NCBI GenBank assembly: GCA_902776415.1
Contig: CACYPY010000009.1
Location: 1-40,844, forward strand
Source of the DNA: an uncultured Ruminobacter sp.
GTDB lineage: Bacteria > Pseudomonadota > Gammaproteobacteria > Enterobacterales > Succinivibrionaceae
Direction of reading: 5' to 3'
DNA length: 40,844 bases
The translations under genes were made by a program, and so were the position numbers. Position 1 is the stretch's first letter; the number at the start of each line of letters is the position of its first letter. Under the pieces are notes generated by a model. That model made no database searches. It was not told where the DNA came from and saw nothing but the letters and a program-made list of their open reading frames with translations. Shown piece after piece: positions 17,489-18,769 of this stretch.

Positions 17489-17707
17489 ATGCTAATTCTG
17501 ACGCGAAGACAGGGAGAGTCTATCATTGTCGGAGACAATGTCAGGATTACCGTTATTTCCGTAAAGGGGAATCAGGTTCGCATAGGTGTTGAAGCCCCGA
17601 AGACCGTTTCCGTTCAGCGTGAGGAAATTGCCGTGAAAAAGGATCATAATTCCGGCGGTCTCTCTGATGGCAATGAGGTTTCGGAGCCTGTTCATCAGGA
17701 TTCCTGA
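17489..17707 (+). CDS. csrA: Carbon storage regulator CsrA
   Basis: 72 residues (E. coli 61). A dimeric RNA-binding protein that blocks or stabilises mRNAs at GGA hairpins, controlling central carbon metabolism, motility and biofilm genes. The sequence [11 protein letters not shown], the [13 protein letters not shown] core and VQREEI are nearly identical to E. coli, including RNA-contacting Leu4, Arg6 and Arg44-type positions. The C-terminal tail of about 20 residues is longer and polar. The ATG follows GGAG by 8 bases; an in-frame ATG at 17411 is upstream of the leader hairpin and is rejected. The alaS-csrA-tRNA order is conserved with E. coli, except for the extra gene inserted next. Confidence 0.96.
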
Positions 17708-17789: not shown

Positions 17790-17795
17790 TATAAT
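17790..17795 (+). promoter_or_regulatory. -10 element for the 17885 gene
   Basis: A perfect TATAAT 90 bases upstream of the ATG. TTGATT lies only 13 bases upstream, too close to be a normal -35. Confidence 0.4.
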
Positions 17796-17884
17796 GATTC
17801 GCACTGAAGACTGCGTGTTAAGAGCAGTTTGGTTGTTGTCGTGGTTTTCAGGTGATTCTTACTTTTATCTGTAAAGGAATTAAT

Positions 17885-18271
17885 ATGAAAAAATTACTTG
17901 TTGCAGCAATTGCACTGACTCTTTCCGCTTCAGCATTTGCAGACTGGGAAGTTGTTGAGCAGAATGACCAGTCCGTAACTTTTGCTGATAAGGACCTTGG
18001 CATTGCAATGAACGTAACTGCTGCCGGTAAGTCTGGCTCTGCTCCTATCAAGGATGTTGCCGAATCTGCTGCAAAGACCCTTAGCTGCGGTGCCGTTTCC
18101 GAAGCCGCTATCGGTGAGTATCCTGCATATCATCTGAGCTCCTGTCCTAACGAAGTTCAGGTATTCGTTGTTGATGACGGCAAGGATATTGTTGCAATTT
18201 CCGGAAAGTGCGGCAGTCAGGATTCCTGTGCTGCGGTTGATTCTCTTCTTGAAAAGATTATCAATAATTAA
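17885..18271 (+). CDS. Small secreted four-Cys protein, probably highly expressed
   Basis: 128 residues that I do not recognise. Residues 1-19 are a textbook Sec signal peptide (MKKLL, an Ala/Leu core, AFA cleavage before Asp20). The mature domain of about 109 residues has four cysteines (68, 87, 109, 115), suggesting two disulfides in the periplasm, and is acidic. AAGGA precedes the ATG at good distance; an ATG-less extension upstream to 17852 is rejected because it would bury the signal peptide. Codon choice (GTT, GCT, CTT, GGC/GGT, AAG) is like eno rather than like most other neighbours, which points to strong expression. It has its own -10 and a strong terminator. It sits between csrA and the serine/arginine tRNAs, a junction that has no such gene in E. 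coli. Confidence 0.75.
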   Translation: MKKLLVAAIALTLSASAFADWEVVEQNDQSVTFADKDLGIAMNVTAAGKSGSAPIKDVAESAAKTLSCGAVSEAAIGEYPAYHLSSCPNEVQVFVVDDGKDIVAISGKCGSQDSCAAVDSLLEKIINN

Positions 18272-18315: not shown

Positions 18316-18348
18316 GGGGGCGGGATGGATTCCTGCCCTTTTTTTTTT
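18316..18348 (+). terminator. Strong terminator after the 17885 gene
   Basis: 8-base stem GGGCGGGA (18318-18325) with TCCTGCCC (18331-18338), one G-U pair, then ten T residues. Confidence 0.9.
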
Positions 18349-18450
18349 GGGGAAAAACATGTTTTTGGCTTTATTCAGGTTATAAAGTGAGCAAAATGGC
18401 TTCCCGAATGGCTATTTTTGTAATAATTTGAAAATTTTCAGGCTTATCTC

Positions 18451-18504: not shown

Positions 18505-18595
18505 GGTGTGATGACCGAGAGGCCGAAGGTGCTCCCCTGCTAAGGGAGTATACCCCAAAAGGGTATCAAGGGTTCGAATCCCTTTCGCACCGCCA
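18505..18595 (+). tRNA. tRNA-Ser (GCU)
   Basis: 91 bases including encoded CCA. The acceptor GGTGTGA pairs with TCGCACC, discriminator G. The anticodon arm CTCCC-CTGCTAA-GGGAG has GCT at 18539-18541. The long class II variable arm (TACCCC/GGGTA) and GGTTCGAATCC T-arm identify a serine tRNA. It is equivalent to E. coli serV downstream of csrA and reads AGC/AGU codons. Confidence 0.97.
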
Positions 18596-18605
18596 GTTCG
18601 TTACT

Positions 18606-18682
18606 GCACCCTTAGCTCAACTGGATAGAGTACTCGGCTACGAACCGAGCGGTTGAAGGTTCGAGTCCTTCAGGGTGCGCCA
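18606..18682 (+). tRNA. tRNA-Arg (ACG), copy 1
   Basis: 77 bases with encoded CCA. Acceptor GCACCCT pairs with AGGGTGC, discriminator G. The anticodon arm CTCGG-CTACGAA-CCGAG carries ACG at 18640-18642, whose A34 is normally deaminated to inosine so that it reads CGU/CGC/CGA. It corresponds to the E. coli argVYZQ series. Confidence 0.97.
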
Positions 18683-18692
18683 CTGTCTGTTT

Positions 18693-18769
18693 GCACCCTT
18701 AGCTCAACTGGATAGAGTACTCGGCTACGAACCGAGCGGTTGAAGGTTCGAGTCCTTCAGGGTGCGCCA
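18693..18769 (+). tRNA. tRNA-Arg (ACG), copy 2
   Basis: Base-for-base identical to the copy starting at 18606, 87 bases downstream, with anticodon ACG at 18727-18729. A tandem duplication, shorter than the four-copy E. coli array. No obvious terminator follows. Confidence 0.97.

Follow-up and report, generated by a model that had tools for sequence, protein, structure and literature searches.

In this work, we examined a 128-residue open reading frame (ORF) located between csrA and a group of tRNA genes in a 40,844 nt stretch (hereafter the window) of contig CACYPY010000009.1 from an uncultured Ruminobacter sp. of the Succinivibrionaceae, and found that it is a real gene with near-ribosomal codon usage. 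Our preferred interpretation, to which we give a probability of about 45%, is that it encodes an abundant, soluble, disulfide-stapled periplasmic protein with a Mog1p/PsbP-like domain, transcribed as its own unit and serving as an accessory or chaperone-like binding protein. An earlier note, made by a model from the letters of this DNA, had proposed a highly expressed periplasmic protein between csrA and the tRNAs, and as an inference from sequence that proposal is upheld. Neither outcome that the note had named as refuting it, average codon adaptation or a match to a known family, was obtained. With codon usage on par with that of enolase and GroEL, the product probably ranks among the most common envelope proteins of these rumen-type bacteria, and it is named by neither Pfam nor NCBIfam. 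With a predicted fold and disulfide pattern in hand, its role can be tested in the cultured type strain.

Genomic Context and Transcription Signals

The ORF was found as previously described, in the gene order alaS, csrA, 128-residue gene, tRNA-Ser, tRNA-Arg, tRNA-Arg and a replicative-helicase-like (dnaB-like) gene, the names of alaS and the helicase-like gene having been assigned by eye (Table 1). The genome is Succinimonas-like. Its closest named relative, Succinimonas amylolytica DSM 2873 (L002), has an identical gene order, and in a second ortholog-bearing genome, the Succinivibrionaceae MAG UBA3769, csrA is followed by the gene and then by the contig end. In UBA3769, a type IV pilin-like gene on the opposite strand, identified by reading, separates alaS from csrA (L003:2905-3519), and its product has an N-terminal zinc-ribbon-like stretch. 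The expectation that Escherichia coli carries no such gene at the csrA-tRNA junction proved correct, as the 315 nt gap between csrA and serV in strain K-12 contains no CDS. Among 30 csrA loci surveyed in the family, 12 were parsed by motif (the other 18 were uncounted and UBA3769 is outside the count); the gene was present at two of these junctions, both of Succinimonas, and absent from nine, in which tRNA-Ser follows 90 to 530 nt downstream of csrA, with the remaining junction cut by a contig end. The gene at the junction is therefore so far a feature of the Succinimonas group only.

Transcription of the gene as its own unit would start at a promoter shortly after csrA and finish at its own terminator. 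Of the earlier claim that the gene has its own -10, the perfect TATAAT hexamer stands, as it starts 95 nt ahead of the start codon and is kept in S. amylolytica; the promoter itself is less certain, since a promoter scan called no site at 17790-17795, hence no acceptable -35, and the hexamer occurs often in the window (22 copies versus 11.9 expected). The terminator that had been described as strong is real in form, with a stem of 10 pairs and a T-run, but its region has a fold z-score of only -1.9. A hairpin-like GGGGCA...TGCCCC with a T-run was read from the alignment at the corresponding position of S. amylolytica.

Table 1. Features of the 128-residue gene and its immediate neighbors in the window.
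Feature	Position	Strand	Basis
csrA, upstream neighbor (outside the finding)	17489..17707	+	PF02599 match, E 2.8e-22; ORF list
Candidate -10 hexamer TATAAT, perfect, no clear -35	17790..17795	+	Sequence; conserved in S. amylolytica
Shine-Dalgarno AAAGGA	17873..17878	+	Sequence; AAGGA kept in S. amylolytica and UBA3769
CDS, 128 aa putatively secreted Mog1p/PsbP-like (predicted fold) protein	17885..18271	+	ORF, selection, codon adaptation, fold model
Probable signal peptide, residues 1-19, cut after AFA	17885..17941	+	By eye; MKKL...SA.A.A conserved in alignment A1
Mature domain, 109 aa, 11.25 kDa, pI 4.2	17942..18268	+	Composition; AlphaFold model
Cys68 codon, probable partner Cys87	18086..18088	+	In 20/20 aligned members
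Cys87 codon, probable partner Cys68	18143..18145	+	In 20/20 aligned members
Cys109 codon, probable partner Cys115	18209..18211	+	In 15/20; lost jointly with Cys115 in 5
Cys115 codon, probable partner Cys109	18227..18229	+	In 15/20; lost jointly with Cys109 in 5
Putative intrinsic terminator, stem 18316-18340 and T-run	18316..18350	+	Hairpin scan, fold z-score
tRNA-Ser(GCU), tRNA-Arg(ACG), tRNA-Arg(ACG), downstream neighbors	18505..18769	+	tRNA search

Selection and Codon Adaptation

Comparison with the S. amylolytica ortholog revealed 41 synonymous differences against 14 nonsynonymous ones (omega 0.07, dS 0.70), and omega relative to UBA3769 was 0.18; the ORF is a real gene under strong purifying selection. 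For codon adaptation, the weights were derived from 23 ribosomal-protein genes of this genome, which themselves scored 0.589-0.766 when each was left out in turn. The gene scored 0.734 (0.780 for the mature part), far from the background median of 0.434, placing it above 99.4% of 330 background ORFs and third among them behind eno (0.750) and groEL (0.744), whose names were assigned by eye, despite its longer mechanical start. Those ORFs, which include the gene itself, were called mechanically (at least 90 residues, greedy non-overlap) from the window and 19 stretches of 14.7-20 kb of the 3.04 Mb, 85%-complete genome. The result bears out the suggestion that codon choice resembles that of eno and, with codon adaptation taken as a proxy, expression looks very high. 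Fourth in the ranking is a paralog on contig C67 of the same genome (0.667). That contig, which thus bears a codon-optimized family member, also has a CRISPR-like array (L055, 327-1836) with ~20 copies of a ~36-nt repeat at 72-75 nt spacing and unique spacers.

In an alternative reading of these values, amino-acid composition or local base composition would produce the codon bias as an artefact, and the protein would not be abundant. In its favor, codon adaptation is no more than a proxy, and the S. amylolytica ortholog is lower at 0.653, above 89% of 45 ORFs. However, none of 5000 synonymous redraws of the same protein from background usage (mean 0.497, sd 0.033) reached the score of the gene, redraws from ribosomal usage having a mean of 0.698, and the neighboring alaS and dnaB-like genes score only 0.46-0.47. 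In addition, the bias recurs in other genera, as of 13 family members tested in six genomes, eight, representing three genera if the two-Cys sister family is counted, exceed background synonymous usage by more than 3 sd. We consider an artefact very improbable. Individual members range widely, with the caveat that backgrounds are small for G017, G011 and G010 (14, 13 and 14 ORFs, respectively) and contain the member itself for G017 and G005: 0.653 and 0.667 in S. amylolytica (z 4.1 each), 0.842 in G017 (z 9.8), 0.717 in G005 (z 3.6), 0.720 and 0.606 for the two-Cys members of G011 (z 11.8 and 7.5), and 0.684 and 0.539 in G010 (z 2.6 and 0.1). Below background, and counting against high expression, are the divergent third copies of the genome studied here (G000) and of G001, a genome of the same genus (z -2.3 and -2.9), as well as the four-Cys copy of G011 (z -2.2).

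Features of the Probably Exported Protein

The first 19 residues form a typical signal peptide by eye, with KK, a hydrophobic stretch and AFA|D, from which export can be inferred; the protein would be exported by Sec and the peptide removed. The mature product is probably soluble, since by eye it has no lipobox and no other hydrophobic stretch. As had been noted, it contains four cysteines, Cys68, Cys87, Cys109 and Cys115. Their distribution was determined in a 20-member alignment (A4) that omits, among others, the third copies (L017, L018), L028 and the second L032 copy. The third and fourth cysteines are either both present or both absent, which implies disulfides 68-87 and 109-115, and the mature protein would then be a single Mog1p/PsbP-like domain stapled by both.

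Predicted Mog1p/PsbP-Like Fold

The AlphaFold model of the protein (pLDDT 81.7 for the whole chain, pTM 0.73) has the predicted topology bbb-a-bbbb-a. The top match by VIA-align was SciW (Z 9.5, rmsd 3.1, 107 residues aligned), followed by human Mog1 (Z 9.3, rmsd 3.4, 117 aligned), EagT6 (Z 9.3, rmsd 3.0, 107 aligned), PA94 (Z 9.3, rmsd 3.4, 109 aligned), LpqN (Z 8.5, rmsd 3.8, 116 aligned), DcrB (Z 8.4, rmsd 3.6, 101 aligned), Tsi3 (Z 7.2, rmsd 3.2, 100 aligned) and PsbP (Z 7.2, rmsd 4.1, 114 aligned), with START-type domains at Z 6.6 and below. Foldseek returned no match at E <= 0.001, its best being PsbP at 8.7e-3. When modeled on its own, the two-Cys sister (pLDDT 81.2) matched Mog1 first (Z 10.1, rmsd 3.1, 115 aligned), then LpqN (Z 8.4, rmsd 3.4, 111 aligned), EagT6 (Z 8.1, rmsd 2.8, 98 aligned), DcrB (Z 7.4, rmsd 3.4, 93 aligned) and Tsi3 (Z 7.1). 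The structure search thus gave a predicted Mog1p/PsbP-like fold at the top for two independent predicted models.

The predicted topology is shared with Mog1, PsbP, PA94, LpqN and EagT6/SciW over ~96-117 residues (Z 9.5-7.0), although sequence identity to these proteins is only ~6-13% and no Pfam family of the Mog1p/PsbP fold matches the protein. It also differs from them in being probably exported and soluble, with two likely disulfides. The DcrB lipoprotein (PF08786) resembles it in predicted fold and in its likely envelope location, but the protein studied here has no lipobox cysteine, its signal peptide ending AFA-DW and its first cysteine being residue 68. We found no profile homology to DcrB: PF08786 matched neither the protein in a Pfam scan nor anything in its genome, and hhalign gave a probability of 0.3 with only four divergent DcrB sequences used. 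Eag chaperones are cytoplasmic and are encoded beside their own effectors; in contrast to EagT6 and SciW, the protein here has a signal peptide and its gene lies between csrA and tRNAs.

A Lineage-Restricted Family

The term orphan, previously applied to this protein, was only partly right. No known family was found above cut-off in Pfam or NCBIfam, but the protein is part of a family confined to the Succinivibrionaceae, of which a genome may have as many as three copies, and its predicted fold is assignable. Family matches (E <= 0.001, ten-row profile) were detected in 11 of 56 Succinivibrionaceae genomes. At the order level, 10 of 394 genomes matched, and the single one outside the Succinivibrionaceae (G123, E 3.5e-4, positions 1-65) looks like chance, as by eye the protein is a different one whose signal peptide is similar. 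A class sample yielded one of 369 genomes, the source genome itself (20-row profile), which has three family copies, the maximum per genome. The two-Cys sister profile matched 10 of the 56 genomes, none of them Succinimonas. The four-Cys and two-Cys profiles match at 96%, but that match includes the signal peptide and is therefore weak evidence of kinship; the common predicted fold is better evidence.

Searches of NCBIfam and PADLOC gave nothing, and a literature search at record level, metaproteome papers included, found no published description of the protein. The best Pfam match, PF01883 (FeS_assembly_P), reached 15.8 bits against a cut-off of 23.5 (E 0.017) and was taken as chance, as were other sub-threshold Pfam and PHROG matches. 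The same applies to a PDB sequence match to a covalently linked trimer of cytochrome c555 (0.03, and 8.2e-5 when the broad profile was used), because only ~30 residues are covered and, in the broad-profile search, the repeated chain supplies three stretches.

Tandem family copies occur in G076, G011 and G010. No conserved neighbor hinting at a partner was evident across the family loci inspected. Cys-rich proteins that by eye are Sel1-repeat-like adjoin members in G011 and G076, which represent two genera (L125:8256-10382, L126:5711-6418); this is not the case in the genome studied here. In a 15-member tree, support for the position of the junction gene was weak (60/91) and its group included a very long G011 row. 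Our proposal that this is an undescribed, Succinivibrionaceae-specific family of abundant periplasmic chaperone-like proteins with a disulfide-stapled Mog1p/PsbP domain and top-ranking codon optimization, in which Succinimonas gained the junction copy, is tentative and in our estimate has rather less than an even chance of being correct.

Possible Functions

Proteins with the Mog1p/PsbP fold mostly bind partners, for which reason we favor an accessory or chaperone-like binder. The role considered most likely is a non-enzymatic one in which the protein would bind partners among envelope or secreted proteins, although a common fold is by itself no proof of function. Eag chaperones are described as stabilizing effector transmembrane domains (PMC12881460), MmpL3 and MmpL11 as interaction partners of LpqN (PMC7458404), and the Mog1p/PsbP group, by the authors on PA1624, as diverse in function and possibly associating with membrane-anchored complexes (PMC7716261). 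Counting against this reading, the gene is dispensable across the Succinivibrionaceae, being present in 11 of 56 genomes.

A second possibility is that the protein is not partner-specific and acts in the periplasm as a general chaperone under stress or acid, or that it is an acidic binder of metals or small ligands. The mature protein is small and acidic (pI 4.2, charge about -10), an acidic D97-D98 turn is conserved in most members of alignment A1, and the very high codon adaptation is in keeping with such a role, as a protein acting stoichiometrically needs to be abundant. The rows of the fold search, however, included no known small acid chaperone, and we regard this possibility as unlikely, albeit the best of the alternatives.

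Considerably less probable is that the protein confers immunity to a type VI secretion effector in the manner of Tsi3, the periplasmic immunity protein of Pseudomonas aeruginosa, to which it is similar in predicted fold (Z 7.2; sister model 7.1), in small size and in probable export. A Tsi3-type immunity gene is paired with its effector gene. The genome studied here has two TssC matches, and TssC was found in all eight strict four-Cys carriers versus 23 of 48 other genomes (Fisher p 0.006, phylogeny ignored) and in 10 of 11 carriers by the ten-row profile versus 21 of 45 others (p 0.015, phylogenetically confounded); the tandem copies noted above are also consistent with immunity genes. However, the association falls to p 0.06 once two-Cys carriers are included (11/14 versus 20/42), the Z-score is below those of the chaperones, and near-ribosomal codon usage is unexpected for an immunity gene. 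Moreover, the gene has csrA and tRNAs as neighbors, with no effector-like ORF seen by eye between them or in the immediate neighborhood.

The least credible alternative, that the protein serves the disulfide-forming machinery as substrate or partner, draws on the four-Cys and two-Cys members flanking dsbB in G025 and G029 and the two-Cys member doing so in G005, and is highly improbable given that a family neighbor was found at only three of the 30 dsbB loci examined (from 49 of 56 genomes with dsbB), all in one genus, and that the dsbB of Succinimonas has none.

Two further observations concern these loci. The TssC (PF05943) matches are ~5 kb apart on contig C76 (7031-7933 and 12144-13049), which suggests a single type VI region with two TssC-like genes. 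The two-Cys sisters directly adjoining dsbB in the three genomes of one genus are at L062:2015-2416, L064:958-1431 and L072:907-1374.
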